In this document: piece after piece, positions 1-18,686 of the stretch
Layout: every line of letters begins with the position of its first letter
How positions within the stretch are numbered: the stretch's first letter is position 1
Virus record (IMG/VR): IMGVR_UViG_3300030380_004378
Span: 1 to 47,411 of that record
Reading direction: 5' to 3' (one strand)
Source: a virus
DNA length: 47,411 bases
Notes under the pieces: model-generated
Databases searched by the model: none
What the model was told of the DNA's origin: nothing
The model's input: the letters and a program-made list of their open reading frames with translations, nothing else
Position numbers and translations under genes: made by a program

Positions 1-612
1 TGACTCTACCTGTAATGCGTTCTCTTGGAACCACTCATCACAGACATACTCTAAGTATGAGTCAACTCTTTCTGTTAGTCCTTTCTTAATGTCATCTAGT
101 TCTTCAACTAGTGCTTGAGCATAGGACTCGTGCAATTCTTCTTTGATTTCTGCAACCTTAGAACGGATTGCTCCTTCAAAGATAGTTCTTGCTTTGTCTT
201 GGAACTCTTCGGAAAGTTCTTCACCTTCGAGTAGAGCCTGAACATCTGCTTCGATGTCAATTGTCTCTTCCTCTTCGATGACCTCTTCCTCTGTTGTTTC
301 CTCTTCGGCAACAACTTCCTCTTCAGAAGTCTCTTCTTCAGCAACAACTTCATCAGTTGCTTCTGCAGTTGGTTCTTCTTCGATTACATCGCCTTCAGGT
401 TCAACAGATTCTGCTTTACCAGCCTTTGCATTTACGATATCCTTGACTTGAGCAAGGGTCGCTGCAGGGTCTTTGAGTTTTGCAGAATCATCATCTGGCT
501 TGTAGTTTTCTGGTGTAGGTCCACCAAGATCCTCTACTGGAATTCCTGATGATGGCATAGGATCAGCTTTTGCTGCTCCTGCGGTGACCTGGTTTTCTTC
601 GATGTTTTCCAT
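1..612 (-). CDS. 22: Prohead core scaffolding protein gp22 (5' part; runs off the left edge)
   Basis: The reading frame starts with ATG at 612 and stays open to base 1, giving 204 codons without a stop, so the 3' end lies outside the window. It begins MENIEENQVTAGAAKADPMP. The middle (about residues 60-125) is dominated by Glu, Val, Ala and Thr, and the visible end is helical and acidic (VDSYLEYVCDEWFQENALQV). T4 gp22 is the main internal scaffold of the prohead; it is degraded by gp21 once the shell is complete. The assignment rests on the acidic helical composition, the position directly downstream of protease gp21, and resemblance to cyanophage gp22 proteins. An exact late promoter lies 53 bases before the start. 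The lysine-rich frame inside it at 108-353 is a shadow. Confidence 0.88.
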   Translation of the reverse strand, partial: MENIEENQVTAGAAKADPMPSSGIPVEDLGGPTPENYKPDDDSAKLKDPAATLAQVKDIVNAKAGKAESVEPEGDVIEEEPTAEATDEVVAEEETSEEEVVAEEETTEEEVIEEEETIDIEADVQALLEGEELSEEFQDKARTIFEGAIRSKVAEIKEELHESYAQALVEELDDIKKGLTERVDSYLEYVCDEWFQENALQVES

Positions 613-684: not shown

Positions 685-1335
685 TTAGAGATTATTTAGA
701 AAATCGTTGAATAGACTTAACTTCTTTTCTTCTAATCTTTTTTGTGTGACAAGTGTATTAATTGTCTTTTGAGTTTTTTCTGCGAGTTCTTCACGAAGAC
801 TACCGCCTTCCCAAATCCACTCTTTCCCTTCCATGATTCCATTTACAAAAGCGTCTGGAGCTGAAGGGTCTGCAACTATGTCCGCTGCAGTTGCTAGTTG
901 GAAATCTTCCCCAACCATTTTACATCCATTACTACTCTCTCTAAGTGATCCAACACCACGAGAAGATACTCCAAGTTTAACCCCCTCATCAATTAATGAT
1001 GAAGCAATCTTACCCATCGGAGTTGATAGTAATTGTGCTTTACCTCTAAAATTATTACCCTCTCTTACAAGAGAAGTAATCTTATGAGATACACGATCTA
1101 AATTAACAGTTGGACCTTCGGGATGTCCCAATTCTCCAAGTGCTCTTCCCTGACTCACAAAAGTTTTAGTGTATCTTCTAACTTCATTTTCTAAAATATC
1201 AACGGGATACATTCTACCATTACGGTTTTTGATTCCACCTTGAAGGAATATGCCTTCAATGCAAAGTCTCTTACCTTTACCAACTTTTTCAGTGATAAAT
1301 TTAATTTGAGAAATTTCTTCTGTGATTAGTTTCAT
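685..1335 (-). CDS. 21: Prohead core protease gp21
   Basis: This 216-residue protein is the maturation protease that cleaves capsid, scaffold and internal head proteins before packaging. The N-terminal half has the family signature GGIKNRNGRMYP (about residues 33-44). The catalytic His is in ELGHPEGP (H71), and the catalytic Ser is in GVSSRG (S124 or S125). A conserved Asp-containing stretch, ADIVADPSAPDA, follows (about 151-162). Length is close to T4 gp21 (212). The order gp20, gp67, small gene, gp21, gp22 is the T4 order. The start follows the stop of the upstream gene by five bases, and the downstream gap carries a late promoter for gp22. All expected catalytic segments are present, so the enzyme looks intact. 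Confidence 0.95.
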   Translation of the reverse strand: MKLITEEISQIKFITEKVGKGKRLCIEGIFLQGGIKNRNGRMYPVDILENEVRRYTKTFVSQGRALGELGHPEGPTVNLDRVSHKITSLVREGNNFRGKAQLLSTPMGKIASSLIDEGVKLGVSSRGVGSLRESSNGCKMVGEDFQLATAADIVADPSAPDAFVNGIMEGKEWIWEGGSLREELAEKTQKTINTLVTQKRLEEKKLSLFNDFLNNL

Positions 1336-3570: not shown

Positions 3571-4161
3571 TTAGCTGATGTTTTCACCGCCTGAAACTGG
3601 ACTGTCTCCTTTTAGGATTTCAATATACTGAACTTGTAGTTCAACAGTGAATTCCTGGATACCAGCAGCATCATACGATAGTTCAATAGGACCGACCTGT
3701 GTTGGGAATGTGTCATAGAAACGATACTTTCTAAGACTCTGACCATCACGATCAAGTTGGAATACAAATGCGTCTGCTTGATAATCTGCTGGATTAACTA
3801 AACCAGTGTTATCACTTAACTTATTAATTGTATTCATCCAGTTCTCAAACGCTGACCTTATTGCAAAGTCTGTGTCGTTGATAACTGTAACTGTCCATGA
3901 ATCGAACGTTCTGTCACCTGCGATTTTAAGAACCCTTCCTCTGAAAGGCACTTCTATCTGTGCGATGTTTGAAGCTGGTAATCTTGCACCCTTAACTAAA
4001 AATCTTGATTTATCAAGAACATCAGAGGGTGGTTGAGCAGCATCTGGAAATGTTAGAACAACTTCAAACAGATTAGCACGAGCACCGCCACCAGTCAACT
4101 TAGTCTTAAAGTCGGAAATCGTCCTTAATGGTGGTGGATTGATCTGATTTCTACTAGCCAT
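3571..4161 (-). CDS. 19: Tail tube protein gp19
   Basis: A 196-residue protein, slightly longer than T4 gp19 (163). It stacks as hexameric rings to form the inner tail tube through which DNA leaves the head. Family-like stretches are FKTKLTGGGARANLFEVVLT near the N-terminus, the middle segment LKIAGDRTFDSWTVTVINDT, and YDAAGIQEFTVELQVQYIEI near the C-terminus. It lies 21 bases downstream of the sheath gene, in the standard T4 order gp18, gp19, gp20. Confidence 0.95.
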   Translation of the reverse strand: MASRNQINPPPLRTISDFKTKLTGGGARANLFEVVLTFPDAAQPPSDVLDKSRFLVKGARLPASNIAQIEVPFRGRVLKIAGDRTFDSWTVTVINDTDFAIRSAFENWMNTINKLSDNTGLVNPADYQADAFVFQLDRDGQSLRKYRFYDTFPTQVGPIELSYDAAGIQEFTVELQVQYIEILKGDSPVSGGENIS

Positions 4162-6697: not shown

Positions 6698-6882
6698 CGT
6701 TCTTCTTCCTCCTCATCAATATCAGCATACGCATCTGGATAATATGGACCGTGAGGTTTCTTTGCTTCCTCTCTGATATACTTAGACTCAAATGTTGTTA
6801 AGGATAACCAAGTTGCAAGTTTCATGACAATGAATATAATCACAATCGGCATGAAGCATAATAAGAGAATAACTGAATTCAT
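6676..6882 (-). CDS. Small single-span membrane protein
   Basis: A 68-residue protein. Residues about 3-28 are a hydrophobic membrane segment (SVILLLCFMPIVIIFIVMKL), followed by a soluble acidic tail with a run of five glutamates near the C-terminus. The ATG overlaps the stop of the NifU-like gene (ATGA), so translation is coupled. I do not recognise a family. The layout suggests an N-terminal anchor with a cytoplasmic tail; it may act on the host membrane late in infection, but this is only inference. Confidence 0.75.
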   Translation of the reverse strand: MNSVILLLCFMPIVIIFIVMKLATWLSLTTFESKYIREEAKKPHGPYYPDAYADIDEEEEERWNSTNN

Positions 6883-7160
6883 AATACTTGAATTACTCCT
6901 ACTATTTCAGGGAAGGTTTGTGTAAGATGTCTTTCAATACCCATTTTAAGTGTTTGAGCACTCATCGCACAAGATTCACAAGCTCCACTTAATCTGACCT
7001 TTACGATTGCTGCTTCTTCACCCTCTCTAACACCATAATACATTCTTACATTCTCATCTAAATTATAATCTAACTCGACAAACTCAAGATATCCCCCATC
7101 AGATTCAATATAAGGACGTATATCATCTAATGATTTATTGACTTCTACTGGATCTAACAT
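6879..7160 (-). CDS. NifU-like iron-sulfur cluster scaffold protein
   Basis: A 93-residue protein that is essentially one NifU C-terminal (Nfu) domain. The N-terminal part (SLDDIRPYIESDGGYLEFVE, residues about 10-29) and the core VRLSGACESCAMSAQTLKMG with the CxxC motif (C61, C64) are diagnostic. The family dimerises and holds a 4Fe-4S cluster between paired CxxC motifs for delivery to apoproteins. Host-like NifU domains are known in some cyanophages. Here it sits inside the late structural block between gp17 and gp18, with start-stop overlaps on both sides (TAATG with the 42-codon gene, ATGA with the membrane gene), so it is made late. A possible role is to keep host photosynthetic or nucleotide-synthesis iron-sulfur proteins working. 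Confidence 0.92.
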   Translation of the reverse strand: MLDPVEVNKSLDDIRPYIESDGGYLEFVELDYNLDENVRMYYGVREGEEAAIVKVRLSGACESCAMSAQTLKMGIERHLTQTFPEIVGVIQVL

Positions 7161-7288
7161 TACAAATCACCCCTCCAAATAATATCAGAACCAGGAACTT
7201 GTGCTGAACGTGATGCTATATTAAAGGCAATATTACAGAAGAAACAAAAATTAAAAAACTGCGAACCAATAAGAAAAAAGTATGCCAT
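7160..7288 (-). CDS. Tiny cysteine-containing hydrophobic protein (42 codons)
   Basis: The frame begins ATG at 7288-7286, overlapping the TAA of gp17 as TAATG, and ends with a TAA at 7162-7160 that overlaps the ATG of the NifU-like gene in the same way. The product starts MAYFFLIGSQFFNFCFFCNI; residues 3-26 are very hydrophobic and rich in Phe, with two Cys, then a polar end (SRSAQVPGSDIIWRGDL). It fills exactly the 129-base gap between two real genes, and both junctions have the coupling pattern used elsewhere in the window. That supports a real gene, probably a small membrane peptide. No family is recognised. Confidence 0.65.
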   Translation of the reverse strand: MAYFFLIGSQFFNFCFFCNIAFNIASRSAQVPGSDIIWRGDL

Positions 7289-8301
7289 TAATAATAATCC
7301 CACATATAGGAACGATCTCCATATTCATCAGTCTTCCATAAATCACCGTCTTTGTCAACAAATGTGTCTTCATCGAAACCATCTGAAATAAAACCAAAGG
7401 GTGCCATATCCTGCTCTATTTGATTTTTTTGTTCTTCATATATTCTCTTTCGCACATCATTATCAGTCATTTCCTTAAAGTAATCTTGTGCCACTAACCA
7501 CGAGAATATTACAAGACACATTGCTAGGTCATCATTACATCCCTCTTCTGCCTCAAATGAATTATGTTTCTGAGCAAATGTTGTAAGTTCTGATATGATA
7601 TCATAGTCACAAACTAATATTTTATCGTCTTCAAGTAATGTTTTGAGATTAGAACATCCTAACTTTTTAACTGCTGCTGTAGTTCTAACTCCAAGTTGAG
7701 ATCTCTTCCCACTAAAACCAGCACCAACAACCTGACCATTACGACCACGTTGTGAACACATTAATAAGTTTTCATACTCTAAATCATAATTTAGAATCGA
7801 TGCTACCTGATCTCCAATATCATTTACTTCGACTAAAACAAATGCCTTATTATATGCCATTGCAATATCGTGTATTACATTTGGAAATAACATCGGTTTG
7901 ATTTCATTATTTCTATATTTACCTACAACCTTATATGGAAACTCTGTGATATCAAATACGAGAAAAGCGGAATAATCATTTCCAAGACCACGAGCAACAT
8001 CGACTGTAATTAGATAATTATGATCCTTTCTTGGTGCCTCATAGATATCAAGACCTGCATTTTTCTGTATTGGGTCATTGAATACGAGAGTTTTTAATTT
8101 AGATGGAGCAATAAGTGTATTAACAGATCCTAGAAATTCACACTCAAACTCAACCTTGAACTGTGCCTCTGATGTGTTGGCAATTGTTTGTTCTTTCCAA
8201 ACCTGATCACGACCTGGCACTTCAGACCAATGAACTTCTGTTGGCACATATTCATTTTTCTTTCTTTCAGCATCGTGCCACATACGGTAGAAATGATTCA
8301 T
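7288..8301 (-). CDS. 17: Large terminase gp17, C-terminal part (nuclease domain), separated by an internal break
   Basis: This 337-codon frame is the C-terminal two thirds of gp17. It holds the RNase H-like nuclease that cuts concatemeric DNA, with acidic residues in YLITVDVARGLGNDYSAFL, FVLVEVNDIGD and CNDDLAMCLVIFSW, matching the three catalytic acidic positions of T4 gp17. The listed ATG (MNHFYRMW) is internal: the same frame continues upstream to 8337 and encodes KTKVIIVSTPRG, the coupling motif that normally follows the ATPase Walker B region. The native protein therefore did not start here. Translation from this ATG might occur, but it would make a nuclease fragment lacking the ATPase. 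Confidence 0.9.
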   Translation of the reverse strand: MNHFYRMWHDAERKKNEYVPTEVHWSEVPGRDQVWKEQTIANTSEAQFKVEFECEFLGSVNTLIAPSKLKTLVFNDPIQKNAGLDIYEAPRKDHNYLITVDVARGLGNDYSAFLVFDITEFPYKVVGKYRNNEIKPMLFPNVIHDIAMAYNKAFVLVEVNDIGDQVASILNYDLEYENLLMCSQRGRNGQVVGAGFSGKRSQLGVRTTAAVKKLGCSNLKTLLEDDKILVCDYDIISELTTFAQKHNSFEAEEGCNDDLAMCLVIFSWLVAQDYFKEMTDNDVRKRIYEEQKNQIEQDMAPFGFISDGFDEDTFVDKDGDLWKTDEYGDRSYMWDYY

Positions 8302-8321
8302 ACCTCGTGGTGTTGATACAA

Positions 8322-8858
8322 TTATGACCTTTGTTTTTTGTCAAGAAAGATGACATTATAGGATCCGCCTCGGACAGCAGATGAAGAAGTAGAGTTAGCT
8401 GAAATTTTGGATCCATTTTCGATCTCCAGTGATCCTTTATTCCAAGATATGATACCCTGTTGCATCCATCTTGGCAAGTTTTCGTATGCTAATTGTAATC
8501 TACCTAATAGATCACGGGCAGTTGATGCCTTGTTTGCAAGTATAGCAATATTAACATTATCATTAAATATTGCATAATGTAGAAGGTATGATACAACTGT
8601 TGTCGATTTACCTGTCTGCCGAGGCATCTTGCATATATTGAAACGGTTTTCATGGAAGTTTTTAATTAATTTTTTCTGAAAATCATATTGCTTAAATGGA
8701 ACTAATCCCTCATCAAGAGATACGATCTTGATATAGTTGTTTGCAAAATAAACAGGATCATCCTTACACTTCAAGAATTCACGGATATTTTCCTCCGTGA
8801 ACTCAATCGGTGTATTTGCTTTTTTTAGATTAGGATTACCAAGATAGACTTCACTCAT
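8322..8858 (-). CDS. 17: Large terminase gp17, N-terminal part (ATPase domain), truncated
   Basis: This 178-codon frame is the N-terminal ATPase part of the DNA-packaging motor. Walker A is MPRQTGKSTT (about residues 78-87), and the Walker B beta strand is NVIFLD (168-173). Cyanophage and T4 gp17 continue with an acidic residue and about 25 more residues before the STP motif. Here the sequence after LD is six A residues and CAAAGG, reading KKQRS and a stop. The rest of the gene resumes in another frame at 8337. The catalytic glutamate after Walker B is thus missing, and the ATPase could not work as written. The start at 8858 follows the upstream mosaic gene by nine bases. Confidence 0.9.
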   Translation of the reverse strand: MSEVYLGNPNLKKANTPIEFTEENIREFLKCKDDPVYFANNYIKIVSLDEGLVPFKQYDFQKKLIKNFHENRFNICKMPRQTGKSTTVVSYLLHYAIFNDNVNIAILANKASTARDLLGRLQLAYENLPRWMQQGIISWNKGSLEIENGSKISANSTSSSAVRGGSYNVIFLDKKQRS

Positions 8859-8867
8859 TTTTCTTTA

Positions 8868-11800
8868 TCAGCAGTTCCAGCGACGTAATGCCTTATTTAT
8901 TCTTGAATCTGGATCTCTACTTGTCTTTGCAGAAGTTAGTTTCTTTTTCATACCTTTCATTCTTCTACAGAATGATAGTCTTCTCTTTGCTGATTTAGAA
9001 CCTTTCTTTAATTTTTTAGGGTCTTTTGTTACAGCAGTCTTTAATTTAGAACCAGGATTTTCTTTCTTATAAGCATTTACTGCTTTTTGACTCATGCCAT
9101 CAGTTTTATCTTTTCGATTAGTTTTTTGCCAATCTTCACCTAAGTCATCTCTCCAATTAGACATATTTTCTTTGAGTGGTTTAGGTTTAATTATATCAAC
9201 AGTTTCAATTTCTGTAAACTTGATATCATCTACATTCCAATCTTGAATTGTAAGTGCCTCATCGGTTATACTTTCACCCATTCCTCTTCTTAATCTAATA
9301 TTTTCATTTTCTTTATCAGCTGCGGATTTCCTTGCTACTTGTTTTGCAAGTCCTAAACCCTGACCTGCAGCTGATACACCTGCAATGGTTAACATAGTTT
9401 TTGGAGCAACAATATAAGGTAGTGATTTACCAACTCCCATACCAAGTCCACCTAGTAAAGATAATCCTGCTTTACTTTTACTTAATTTAAGTGCTCCTAA
9501 AGCAAATTTTCCTAATCCTCCTAAAATACTAGGACTTTCATCAATATTTTCTTCTTTCATTGCTTGTTTGCGAATGGTTGCAAAGTATACTTTCTTACCC
9601 TCCTCTTTACCATATTGTTTCTGCATATTCTTCTTCATATCAGACTTATCATACTTCTTTTTCAATCTATCATCTTTTCTTTTCTCTTTTTCAGTCATTT
9701 TCTTTTCATCAATGACTTCACCTTCTGGTTCATAATGTGCTAGGTTAATATCAGGACCTCCCAATGTTTTTTTAATTTTTTTACCTTTACCTACACCGTG
9801 TATATTTTTATCAATACCATCATCTAGATTTTTCATTGTCCCCTTTATATTATCACCTGTTACATTTTTTTTCTTAGGTGATTCGTCAATAGACTCACCC
9901 TCTGGTTGATAAGATGCACCTAAAAAATTATCACGATATCTTTTTAACATATCAGGTGTCATGTTAGGATCTTTTTTTCTTTTACCCTTTCCTGTTGCAG
10001 TTTTAATTAAAACATCGGTTGCACCTTCAATCACTCCATCGTAATCGAGTTCTTCCTTCCGAGTTTTACTTTTGGACTTTTTTACGCAGTTTGGATACCT
10101 CTTACCGAACATTGTTTTCATGCCTTTCTTTTCATAACCTGCCCAACACTTCTCATCTAAAGTTGATCTCCAATCATAATGATCTTTAGTAACGACTTTA
10201 CCTTTGTTTTTAATAACATTAGCAACTGTTCCAGCAGTGTCAACCTTTCTACCTGTGCCAGGTTTATAATTTGCTTTATCTTTTTCTTTCTTTATTGCTC
10301 CACCTATTGCCATTCCAGCACCCGCCAATCCAGCAAGTGCACCCCCTAAACCTTCTTTCATCTCCTTTTTCTTACCATAAGTTTTGCAAGGTGTTTGACC
10401 ACATCCACAATTCTTATCATCACCTACACCTGCTGCTCTAAGTTCTTTTGCTTGTTTAGTGTGCATTGCAACTGCTTTATCAAGTTGACCTGGTATTGCA
10501 TTTGCTTTCTTTCCAGCATCTTTCTTAAATTCAGGAGACTTTCTTAATCTTTCTGCCTGACTTTTATGTAATGCAACTGCCTTATCTAACTCTGCTGGTA
10601 TTTTATTTACCGCAGAACCATAATGTCCTTCTTTGATATCATCTTCATGAGGTATGGTGTTACCATCTTCATCTTTACGATGATGCTCTGCCAAAGCATC
10701 TCTCCAACGATAATGAGGTGTTTTATAAACCTTTGCTTCATATTCAACTTCTTCTTTACGACTGTTACCCCAATTTGCAGCACCTACCTTACGACATTTG
10801 ACTAATGCACCTGATGCGTATGCACTTGGCCAGACTGAATATCTTGACTTGACTTTATGATAACAAGCATCTTTCGTGCCACTACCTTTACCTTTCTTAT
10901 CTTTTACTTCAGTAATTGTGTCGTGACACTCACACTCACAGTTATCACAACTCTCACCACATTTCTGACAACCTTCTTCCAATATTGCATCTCCTACCAC
11001 CACACCATTCTCAGCAAACCATCCACGATTTACTTCGATTGCATATCTAATATTACCATTTGGATATACTGGTATTGAACTTAATGGATTTAATTCTTTG
11101 ATACTTTCAATGATACCCTCTTCGTTTATAAACGCAATATCAAGAGGTATAAAAGTATTCTTCATATGGAAAGAATGCTGACCTGTCTCCTCAAATATAA
11201 AGAGCATACCACGATCCTGTTCCAAACTTTCACGGAACATCATACCTAACCTAAACTCTCCGTCATTTTGTGGAACCTCAAGTTGAAGTGGTAGTGAGAT
11301 AAATTCTTCTTTCATTTTCTTTTTCTTTTTAGGTTTATCAGTTGAAACATAAGTTGGTTTTGCAGCACCACTCTTACTTTGTTGACCTGGATCTGCCTTC
11401 TTCTTTCTTCTCGCTGCTGATAGTCTTTCTTTCTTACTCATACTTGCTCTCTTTGCAGATGATACACACTTTGGAGTGCCCTCACCAGGTTCGTCACTAG
11501 CACAAGTGCCACCAGTAACTACGTTCACCCATCCACCTTTACCGTCTTTGGATTTAGAACCCTTGAACCATTTGCGGAGTGAACCTTCTTTGACTTCCTC
11601 TTTATCAGTCATATAATCCGCTGCAGTATCAAGATAATCTGCTGCCTTTGTAATTTTAGACTGAACCCACGCTTTTACATCACCCTCACCTTTACCAACT
11701 TTTTTCTTAATTTTCTTCGCAGCAACCATAACATTATCCGTTTGACGACGAATCATTTCGTATTCGTGATCTCCCTTCTTTTCTTCATTCATTGCTTTTG

Positions 11801-12290
11801 TTTTCTTTTTCATTGAGTTGATATACTTTCGGAAGATTGCAGCTTCTGCGGTCTTACCCATCACCCTCGCTCTTTGTTCCATAGCAATCGCTGCTTGGAT
11901 TTTATGAGCATGTTTTCTACTTGATTTACGAATTTTTGCCACGCTTGCTTTAGCAGTAGCAACGTCCTTGAAACCAAGTCCATGAATAGTTCCTTTAGGA
12001 TCTTCATCTGTGTATAAATCGCTATGTTTTTTAGACTTAGCGGGTTGACCTTTTTTACGAGGAATGCGAGGATTTGATTCCTCTGCCATTCTTTTCTTTT
12101 TACCCTGACAATGTGCCTTTTGACTAAATCCTTTTGGATTATTACAGTCAATTGATTTTTTATATTTTCCAGACCAACCCTCTTTAACAAGGAAACCGTC
12201 CTCACGCATTTTATATCCGTCAGGTATTGGTTTACACTTCTTATCGGTGTTGCAGTAGTAAAATCCTTTTTTGCAGGACTTTGTACCCAT
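8868..12290 (-). CDS. 1140-residue mosaic protein with DUF192 domain and several small Cys/basic modules
   Basis: A lysine-rich, multi-module protein placed between gp16 and gp17. Modules visible in order: a Cys motif CKKGFYYCNTDKKCKP (6-21); IDCNNPKGFSQKAHCQGKKK (47-66), a motif I recognise from other viral proteins; a helical basic domain from KHSDLYTDEDPKGTIHGLGF (88-107) to about 165; a Cys pair region (263-275); a DUF192 domain (about 334-437; GMMFRESL, GMLFIFEE, SFHMKNTFIPLDIAFI, AIEVNRGWF); a five-Cys cluster (441-455); a motif with WPSAYASGALVKCRK (487-501); a tandem repeat IPAELDKAVALHKSQAERLR (564-583) and its copy at 599-618; CGCGQTPCKTYG; two Gly/Ala-rich hydrophobic stretches (648-666, 922-980); and a basic C-terminal domain from GMSQKAVNAYKKENPGSKLK (1065-1084) to RRWNC. 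The motif WRxxLxE occurs three times. Similar modules are found in cyanophage structural proteins; virion location is inferred. Confidence 0.85.
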   Translation of the reverse strand: MGTKSCKKGFYYCNTDKKCKPIPDGYKMREDGFLVKEGWSGKYKKSIDCNNPKGFSQKAHCQGKKKRMAEESNPRIPRKKGQPAKSKKHSDLYTDEDPKGTIHGLGFKDVATAKASVAKIRKSSRKHAHKIQAAIAMEQRARVMGKTAEAAIFRKYINSMKKKTKAMNEEKKGDHEYEMIRRQTDNVMVAAKKIKKKVGKGEGDVKAWVQSKITKAADYLDTAADYMTDKEEVKEGSLRKWFKGSKSKDGKGGWVNVVTGGTCASDEPGEGTPKCVSSAKRASMSKKERLSAARRKKKADPGQQSKSGAAKPTYVSTDKPKKKKKMKEEFISLPLQLEVPQNDGEFRLGMMFRESLEQDRGMLFIFEETGQHSFHMKNTFIPLDIAFINEEGIIESIKELNPLSSIPVYPNGNIRYAIEVNRGWFAENGVVVGDAILEEGCQKCGESCDNCECECHDTITEVKDKKGKGSGTKDACYHKVKSRYSVWPSAYASGALVKCRKVGAANWGNSRKEEVEYEAKVYKTPHYRWRDALAEHHRKDEDGNTIPHEDDIKEGHYGSAVNKIPAELDKAVALHKSQAERLRKSPEFKKDAGKKANAIPGQLDKAVAMHTKQAKELRAAGVGDDKNCGCGQTPCKTYGKKKEMKEGLGGALAGLAGAGMAIGGAIKKEKDKANYKPGTGRKVDTAGTVANVIKNKGKVVTKDHYDWRSTLDEKCWAGYEKKGMKTMFGKRYPNCVKKSKSKTRKEELDYDGVIEGATDVLIKTATGKGKRKKDPNMTPDMLKRYRDNFLGASYQPEGESIDESPKKKNVTGDNIKGTMKNLDDGIDKNIHGVGKGKKIKKTLGGPDINLAHYEPEGEVIDEKKMTEKEKRKDDRLKKKYDKSDMKKNMQKQYGKEEGKKVYFATIRKQAMKEENIDESPSILGGLGKFALGALKLSKSKAGLSLLGGLGMGVGKSLPYIVAPKTMLTIAGVSAAGQGLGLAKQVARKSAADKENENIRLRRGMGESITDEALTIQDWNVDDIKFTEIETVDIIKPKPLKENMSNWRDDLGEDWQKTNRKDKTDGMSQKAVNAYKKENPGSKLKTAVTKDPKKLKKGSKSAKRRLSFCRRMKGMKKKLTSAKTSRDPDSRINKALRRWNC

Positions 12291-12295
12291 TATAA

Positions 12296-12727
12296 TTATT
12301 CAGAGCTATTACTATTTAGTATTCCATCTTTTAACATTTTTGAGAGTTCACTGGTAGAACCTACAAATAATGCGTTATTAGTAACAGTATTTTGTTGTTT
12401 AGGATTATCCTCTTCAATCTCTTTTACCTTTTTATGTAAATCTGCTAACTTATCTGTTGTATCTGCAACACTTTTAATTAATTGACCTGCGACTTCATAT
12501 GCTCTCGGACTTGCAGTTTCACCAGCAACCTCCATAATACCATTAATTGCCTCTTGTCCTTTTTCAATCAGTGAGTAAAGATTACCTCTTGTGTAATCAT
12601 AATCTTTACTTACATCATCAGTAAGTTTCTGAATTTGATTTTTTCTTTTTTCATCTTTAACAATATCAGTGTCTTCAACAGGATCAGTGTTGAAAGTATC
12701 ATTTAATGAATCATAAGAATTTTTCAT
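12296..12727 (-). CDS. 16: Small terminase subunit gp16
   Basis: A 143-residue, largely helical acidic protein resembling cyanophage gp16, slightly shorter than T4 gp16 (164). Its core is QKLTDDVSKDYDYTRGNLYS, LIEKGQEAINGIMEVAGETA and SPRAYEVAGQLIKSVADTTD (about residues 33-92). gp16 forms a ring that recognises concatemeric DNA and regulates the gp17 motor. It lies two bases after gp15, as in T4. In T4 gp16 and gp17 are adjacent, whereas here the 3.4-kb mosaic gene separates them. Confidence 0.9.
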   Translation of the reverse strand: MKNSYDSLNDTFNTDPVEDTDIVKDEKRKNQIQKLTDDVSKDYDYTRGNLYSLIEKGQEAINGIMEVAGETASPRAYEVAGQLIKSVADTTDKLADLHKKVKEIEEDNPKQQNTVTNNALFVGSTSELSKMLKDGILNSNSSE

Positions 12728-17973: not shown

Positions 17974-18189
17974 TTACTGAGACGTTATCTTTGAGGCAAG
18001 GTCATTTAGAAGAGATTTGAGTTCATCAAGTTCTTTTCTCATACCATCTATTTCCGCTTGCTTATCATTATTTTTATCTCTTAGGGCGATATAATTACGA
18101 TAACCTGCATCATCTGTATTAAGGATAGCATTTGATTCTTCATCTCTATAAAGATTCTTATGACCTTCAACTGGGATCATTTTACTCAT
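17974..18189 (-). CDS. Small coiled-coil protein (71 residues)
   Basis: A 71-residue protein. The N-terminal half, VEGHKNLYRDEESNAILNTD, is followed by a heptad-rich helix (EIDGMRKELDELKSLLNDLA, about residues 46-65). The ATG overlaps the stop of the upstream 166-residue gene by four bases (ATGA). I recognise this type as a small conserved protein of T4-like cyanophages without a known function. The coiled coil and position suggest a minor tail or assembly role. Confidence 0.75.
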   Translation of the reverse strand: MSKMIPVEGHKNLYRDEESNAILNTDDAGYRNYIALRDKNNDKQAEIDGMRKELDELKSLLNDLASKITSQ

Positions 18190-18686
18190 TTCTTACCCAA
18201 ATATTTCTTGAGCAATTCCTTTAATCTTGCTCTTTTTGCACCAGGCACCTGATCACCTGGACCTTTATTTGCTAATTCGCTATCTCTCTTACGTATCATC
18301 TCTCTCTGAGCAGATATTTTTCTATCTTTCTTTTGTTGTTTAGATAATTTGTTCGATGGAGGTAAACCGAGATATTGACGTTTAGTTCGTGACTTTGATG
18401 CATCAAAACCACCAGTGTCTGCAAATGGTCCTCCTTTCATTTGTTTTTTCTGTTCTCTTCTTTTTAATATTTCACCATCAAGTTTTCTGCCTGTTTTATC
18501 TCTAAAAACAGCATTCTCAAGATTCTTTAAATTTCTAGGTGTTATATTAATGCCATCATTATCCTTTTTCTTGGATTTCATAATCATACCAGCAGCACCA
18601 ATACCAGTCATCAAAGCTGGAATAAGTTTACTTCCTCCCATAACTGCAGTTGCAACACTTTCTTGAAATTGATTAAATGTTTTCAT
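18186..18686 (-). CDS. Basic protein with N-terminal KTFNQFQE motif and hydrophobic helix
   Basis: A 166-residue protein. It begins MKTFNQFQE, an opening that recurs in cyanophage proteins. Residues about 12-36 (ATAVMGGSKLIPALMTGIGA and on) are a Gly/Ala-rich hydrophobic stretch, short for a membrane span. The rest is very basic (Lys/Arg with few acidic residues), ending RARLKELLKKYLGKK. Hydrophobic glycine-rich segments beside lysine-rich ones also occur in the 1140-residue mosaic protein. The gene starts on the last base of the DUF4815-type gene and overlaps the next by four bases. Possible roles are a packaged DNA-binding or injected protein; neither is shown. Confidence 0.75.
   Translation of the reverse strand: MKTFNQFQESVATAVMGGSKLIPALMTGIGAAGMIMKSKKKDNDGINITPRNLKNLENAVFRDKTGRKLDGEILKRREQKKQMKGGPFADTGGFDASKSRTKRQYLGLPPSNKLSKQQKKDRKISAQREMIRKRDSELANKGPGDQVPGAKRARLKELLKKYLGKK

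Follow-up and report, generated by a model that had tools for sequence, protein, structure and literature searches.

A 1140-residue mosaic protein of a T4-like cyanophage as a candidate prohead-core polyprotein with putative protease sites between its modules

In phage T4, the prohead protease gp21 cuts after Glu at L/I-x-E, and ten N-terminal residues are enough for packaging; positions 4 and 7 matter to targeting, 8 and 10 to processing (PMC9026906). Such capsid-targeting sequences (CTS) open the products of ipII and ipIII, which start MKTYQEFIAE|A, and that of ipI, which starts MKTFKEF. IPI inhibits a restriction enzyme, and internal proteins differ widely between T-even phages (PMC3012670). 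Within the capsid-targeting literature, we found cyanophages mentioned in the T4 review only.

The window analyzed here, 47,411 nucleotides of virus record IMGVR_UViG_3300030380_004378, is a contig of a marine T4-like cyanophage with the gene order gp13-gp16, X, gp17, gp18, gp19, gp20, gp21 and partial gp22. Protein X is encoded by an ORF at 8868–12290 on the minus strand, with an ATG start, 1140 codons for amino acids and no internal stop; that it is an ORF chimera or frameshift artifact was ruled out by the single open frame and by similarly built relatives of up to 994 residues. As a first-pass annotation of this DNA had stated, without giving the strand, X sits between gp16, the terminase small subunit (12296–12727, minus strand, directly upstream), and gp17 (8322–8858 plus 7288–8301, minus strand, directly downstream). 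The presumed cleaving enzyme, prohead protease gp21 (Peptidase_S77; 685–1335, minus strand), shares 42% identity with T4 gp21 over 146 columns, and the gene for the scaffold protein gp22 (1–612, minus strand), open at the window end, encodes a product rich in L/IxE. Two neighboring features deserve mention in their own right. The gp17 gene (7288–8858) is broken into two ORFs: set against its relatives, it carries a frameshift and lacks about 25 codons surrounding the Walker B glutamate, either through a contig assembly error or as a genuine lesion, and just downstream of it lies a gene for a NifU-like Fe-S scaffold protein (6879–7160, minus strand; PF01106, E 3e-21; PHROG 29737).

X had been described as a mosaic of at least eight short modules, and we found it to be real, intact and mosaic, counting 16 modules, all on the minus strand; homology defines nine of them (A, B, C, D, E, F, H, K and Q, each matched by at least 13 ORFs in related loci), and the rest were delimited by eye. 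From the N-terminus, these begin with a Cys hairpin, module A (C..G.YYC.TDKKCKPIP; residues 6–32, 12195–12275), and module B (WSxKYKKSIDCxNPKGFSQKAHC; residues 39–67, 12090–12176), followed by module C (NPRIPRKxGQP...; residues 73–167, 11790–12074), helical by homology and model, the helical module D (residues 174–227, 11610–11771), the basic module E (LRKWFKGSKSKDGK...; residues 238–322, 11325–11579), the acidic DUF192 module F (pI 4.4; residues 331–436, 10983–11300) and a short cluster of six Cys, module G (residues 440–457, 10920–10973), for which a search of the related-locus set found no homologues. Module H (DACYHKVKSRYSVWPSAYASGALVKCRK; DUF5872-like; residues 468–509, 10764–10889) precedes the tandem helical repeat, module I (residues 552–621, 10428–10637; homology and model), and a Gly-rich hydrophobic stretch, module J (residues ~647–672, 10275–10352). 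Module K (KCWxGYEKKGMKTMFGKRYPNCVKK; residues 714–739, 10074–10151) is followed by modules L (residues 750–798, 9897–10043) and M (residues 809–857, 9720–9866, between SIDE| and VIDE|), both with boundaries set by eye, by module N (MKKNMxxQYGKEEGKKVYFATIRKQAM; residues 869–911, 9558–9686), recognized by homology to locus L037, by a second Gly-rich hydrophobic stretch, module O (residues 921–1004, 9279–9530), and by the basic C-terminal module Q (pI 10.9; residues 1054–1140, 8871–9131). Every part noticed on first reading was thus present, and the basic domain ending RRWNC proved to be DUF6321 (PF19846; residues 1059–1137, E 1e-11, 45.8 bits against a cut-off of 28.5). The three WRxxLxE motifs reported to recur between modules were likewise located, at residues 529 (WRDALAE|, 10686–10706), 707 (WRSTLDE|, 10152–10172, directly before module K) and 1046 (WRDDLGE|, 9135–9155, before DUF6321), with 0.003 expected in shuffled sequence.

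No module received a function from searches of Pfam, NCBIfam and PADLOC, and the only names returned were DUF192, DUF6321 and DUF5872. The DUF192 match is at residues 335–435 (E 2e-27, 95.5 bits against a cut-off of 27, profile positions 2–94 of 96), and the fold search returned significant matches only to DUF192 structures of unknown function (3pjy, 3m7a). Foldseek also gave a weak, non-significant match between the DUF192 model and an iridovirus histone H3 binding protein, 3rj2 (E 0.11, prob 0.90). The AlphaFold model of X, built from a shallow, mosaic alignment, comprises folded islands, DUF192 among them, amid low-confidence linkers, as would be expected of beads on a string.

Matches to X were found in 471 phage records, almost exclusively from T4-like cyanophages, and by synteny, its C-terminal DUF6321 and the shared modules A-F, H and K, X is to be placed in the cyanophage T4-GC119/DUF6321 family (PF19846; PHROGs 727/3477), whose member in S-B43 bears a structural-protein annotation. 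In most relatives, as in X, the gene occupies the gp16-gp17 gap. We mapped profiles of the X modules onto 80 metagenomic loci, found through terminase, and onto annotated genomes. Homologues with a conserved single-domain architecture would have spoken against a shuffled mosaic; instead, the same modules appear in other orders, combinations and genes, with A N-terminal, internal or C-terminal, D before or after E, and H before or after D. In P-TIM68, modules C, B and A form a separate gene adjoining gp23, and a second mosaic gene bearing H, I, Gly-rich or K modules (P-TIM68 gp159, S-SZBM1_139, PSSM4_156) adjoins a cytidylyltransferase gene. The presence of DUF192 had been called unusual for such a locus, which is half right: the domain is missing from most relatives but is a recurring module, found in about 20 related ORFs. 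Module H reaches 95% identity between phages. In one GC119 relative (L085 7159–9756, plus strand), an insert of about 275 residues splits the module; the insert matches Hint below threshold (E 0.003) and is probably an intein lodged within a putative virion polyprotein. A further copy of module H lies outside the cyanophages, in an unannotated gap of the 53-kb Roseobacter phage CRP-901 (L093 ~4001–4114).

Relatives of X have been found in purified virions. The label "virion protein" is given to S-SCSM1_29 (modules A, E, H, K and Q) in a phage for which 45 virion proteins were identified by mass spectrometry (PMC9602691), and in S-CREM2 both the DUF6321 protein ORF137, at a low peptide coverage of 4.1%, and its neighbor ORF136 are in the MS table (Table 3), from which gp16 and gp17 are absent (PMC10665884). 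The accessible part of the S-SZBM1 MS table (PMC9146016) includes S-SZBM1_139, which has a K-like module and WRREMGVDE, and does not include S-SZBM1_192. In S-SM2, the annotation "similar to S-SM1 protein" is borne by GC119 and by known virion proteins and not by gp16 or gp17; we infer that this label records detection in S-SM1 virions (PMC3037559). This evidence concerns the proteins of relatives, X being known from metagenomic sequence alone, but because those relatives were detected by MS in purified virions, a virion role for X is very likely, and we hold with high confidence that it belongs to a virion protein family.

Several modules also exist as stand-alone genes with T4-type leaders. 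Stand-alone genes of module B, 51 codons long, start MKTFKQFQE|DWTNKYKKS, module A occurs alone behind a CTS in locus L052 (MKSFDRFIEE|), and S-SZBM1_192, a 165-residue DUF6321 homologue, starts MKTFKQYITE|A. Relics of such leaders are seen at points of fusion; P-TIM68 has NMKNFTSFME|ASKTC ahead of module A, and RKTFGQFQE|GWS stands ahead of module B. X itself starts MGTKSCKKGFYYC and has no N-terminal CTS of the form MKTxxxFxxE; since it thus fails one defining feature of T4 internal proteins, we do not assign it to that class. Our guess would be that its entry into the core depends on CTS-like motifs in its interior, or on the attachment of its basic modules to the acidic scaffold. Elsewhere, the window encodes a basic 166-residue protein (18186–18686, minus strand; pI 10.6) with the leader MKTFNQFQE|SVATAV and a Gly-rich hydrophobic stretch, a candidate second internal protein of this phage; it is nearly an orphan, with one distant match, in the single-cell marine virus AG-345-E02.

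The leader is not confined to GC119 modules. In S-CREM2, where 52 of 219 CDS were detected in virions by MS, all four proteins with a leader of the pattern MKx[FYL]xxF were among them (p 0.003), a pattern narrowed after relatives had been seen, and a looser pattern gave a modest 6 of 10 (Fisher p 0.013). Its virion SAM hydrolase, kinase, cytidylyltransferase and two hypothetical proteins bear T4-type leaders, its Cas9-like virion protein has a leader-like motif near the N-terminus (RFASFMAE|AA, residues 18–25), and its virion protein ORF155 contains SWREELSE. Of the two ORFs returned by the strict scan of S-SCSM1, one has a hypothetical annotation and one is the NMNAT, a reported virion protein. 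CTS-like leaders open the virion NMNAT/cytidylyltransferase proteins of S-SCSM1 (MKSFLQFLKE|A; L120 820–2049) and S-SZBM1 (MRFRQFIIE|A; L121 8390–9478). A different kind of N-terminus is found in three small proteins (L004 12680–13108, L044 259–693, L054 1737–2171), which reproduce the cleavage junction of gp23 (E|QPTN..GNGGYT..GPVAG), as though the processed N-terminus of the capsid protein were reused.

The joins between modules carry a similar signal. Using 64 dereplicated module-bearing proteins, which are phylogenetically related, and shuffling each linker of at most 30 residues between homology-defined modules, we found [LIMVF]xE in 64 of 76 distinct linkers as compared to 29.8 (sd 3.5) after shuffling; the strict form [LI]xE occurred in 26 (11.9 shuffled). 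Near-variants were unremarkable: [LIMVF]xD in 12 (11.1), [LIMVF]xxE in 29 (26.7), Ex[LIMVF] in 31 (29.8) and [AGST]xE in 32 (34.5). A random-placement test of [LIMVF]xE gave 70 of 84 against 16.7. The motif stands directly before 46 of 47 copies of module K, after otherwise dissimilar sequences, and is often missing directly before D (present in 5 of 22) and Q (24 of 51). Over all linker sequence, the density of L/IxE was 1.28 times shuffled and not above that of LxD (1.57 times), a test we set aside because it does not discriminate, the specificity being positional, in short linkers between homology-defined modules. Cyanophage gp23 leaders have an L/I-x-E motif at the expected junction. The linkers of X contain 22 such sites, 11 of L/I-x-E and 11 of M/V/F-x-E, the latter outside the T4 consensus of L/I at P3; with L/I sites only, residues 1–438 (modules A-F) would remain a single piece. 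The WRxxLxE motifs are three of these putative hydrophobic-x-Glu sites, and their spacing matches Y4...I8.E10 of the T4 leader. We found no earlier report of protease-site linkers in T4-GC119.

One could envision instead an uncut protein of the virion head, its modules fixed within an extended protein of internal or decoration type, with the linker motif serving as some other signal, such as one for core binding. The presence of relatives in virions would suit such a protein, cleavage of X and its relatives is a prediction, the gp21 motif is short, and many X sites lack L/I at P3. However, enrichment of the exact hydrophobic-x-Glu spacing and not of its near-variants, together with the existence of the same modules as small genes whose leaders end in a predicted gp21 site, makes this unlikely. 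Less likely again is a prohead-core protein degraded by gp21 like gp22, gp67 and gp68, whose pieces would mostly exit the head and serve no purpose once assembly is complete. T4 core proteins are indeed cut into many fragments that leave (PMC9026906), the X gene sits in the head-packaging region, and the low coverage of S-CREM2 ORF137 is what such degradation could produce, but conserved modules (H, up to 95%) and a folded DUF192 would be unneeded in a disposable scaffold, and peptides of relatives persist in mature virions. A terminase-associated factor, which the first-pass annotation had proposed and which the gp16-gp17 position of most relatives would suit, is very improbable, as the S-SSM7 and P-SSM4 genes lie in regions far from terminase genes, relatives are present in mature virions, and the same modules adjoin cytidylyltransferase in P-TIM68 and S-SZBM1. 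Its other suggestion, an assembly platform, is at odds with an order that is shuffled between phages and with linkers resembling protease sites, so of the roles first offered only that in the virion is supported, by the MS data on relatives.

We therefore consider it probable that X is a polyprotein of internal-protein modules that is cleaved by gp21 in the prohead core. Mosaicism with shuffling, linker motif enrichment and the CTS on stand-alone modules are computed here and the presence of relatives in virions is published, while cleavage, how many pieces result, their injection and what each does are what we infer from them. X would be incorporated into the prohead scaffold core, where gp21 would cut after Glu at the hydrophobic-x-Glu sites of the inter-module linkers and release some 10–17 small pieces (~2.4–12.6 kDa if all sites are used). 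The module-bearing pieces would be mostly basic and of 3.5–12.6 kDa (G, 2.4 kDa), 13 of 15 having a pI of at least 8 and 3.5–11 kDa if every site is cut; several would be Cys-rich and possibly metal-binding, and one, the DUF192 domain, acidic. Because the module joins resemble head-protease cutting sites, X is probably packed into the head, cut there and delivered with the DNA, and those pieces retained in the head would be interspersed with the packaged DNA and pass into the host together with it. They may condense DNA, or may act in early host takeover or counter-defense, the latter roles being reasonable by analogy because IPI blocks a restriction enzyme and T-even internal proteins vary. 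X probably originated by fusion of separate internal-protein genes, whose targeting and cleavage sequences would persist as linkers.

T4-like cyanophages are among the most abundant viruses in the ocean, and GC119 genes occur in hundreds of genomes. The chances seem to us about even that, in these phages generally, one gene encodes a changeable set of injected effectors, cut by the prohead protease in the head and delivered together, and that the same CTS code loads cytidylyltransferase/NMNAT, SAM hydrolase, kinase and probably the Cas9-like nuclease into the same virions. T4-GC119 had been described before as a structural cluster; new here are the hydrophobic-x-Glu linkers and the proposed polyprotein and targeting reading, which our literature search did not find elsewhere, nor did it find a paper on DUF6321. 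If correct, this reading would explain the mosaic nature of X and offer an exact cleavage prediction that can be checked in existing proteomics data. It would also provide a short sequence code for packaged and injected cyanophage proteins, explain how metabolic enzymes come to be in virions, where they have been reported with no packaging mechanism, and reveal one way for phages to build a cargo set, through gene fusion with cleavage sites retained.

Among known systems, the closest are the T4 internal proteins IPI, IPII, IPIII and Alt, which are CTS-targeted, processed by gp21 and injected. The stand-alone module genes share their leader of 9–10 residues ending in a gp21 site, and small, mostly basic pieces (predicted for X) and presence in virions (of relatives of X) are further likenesses; X, by contrast, is long, joins many modules, has its sites inside and lacks an N-terminal CTS; the sequence comparison is one of leaders. 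In phiKZ and SPN3US, many internal head proteins of the inner body or ejection apparatus are cut after Glu by a gp21-type protease, at S/A-x-E or A-x-E (PMC9026906, PMC5694885), but these are separate proteins with removed propeptides, whereas X is one candidate polyprotein of recurring small modules. To DUF192 (PF02643, COG1430; 3pjy, 3m7a) X has a full-length, high-scoring match, the domain being here one acidic module of a candidate virion polyprotein. As compared to its T4-GC119 relatives, X has the extra modules G, I, J and L-O and exceeds every other member of the set in length.
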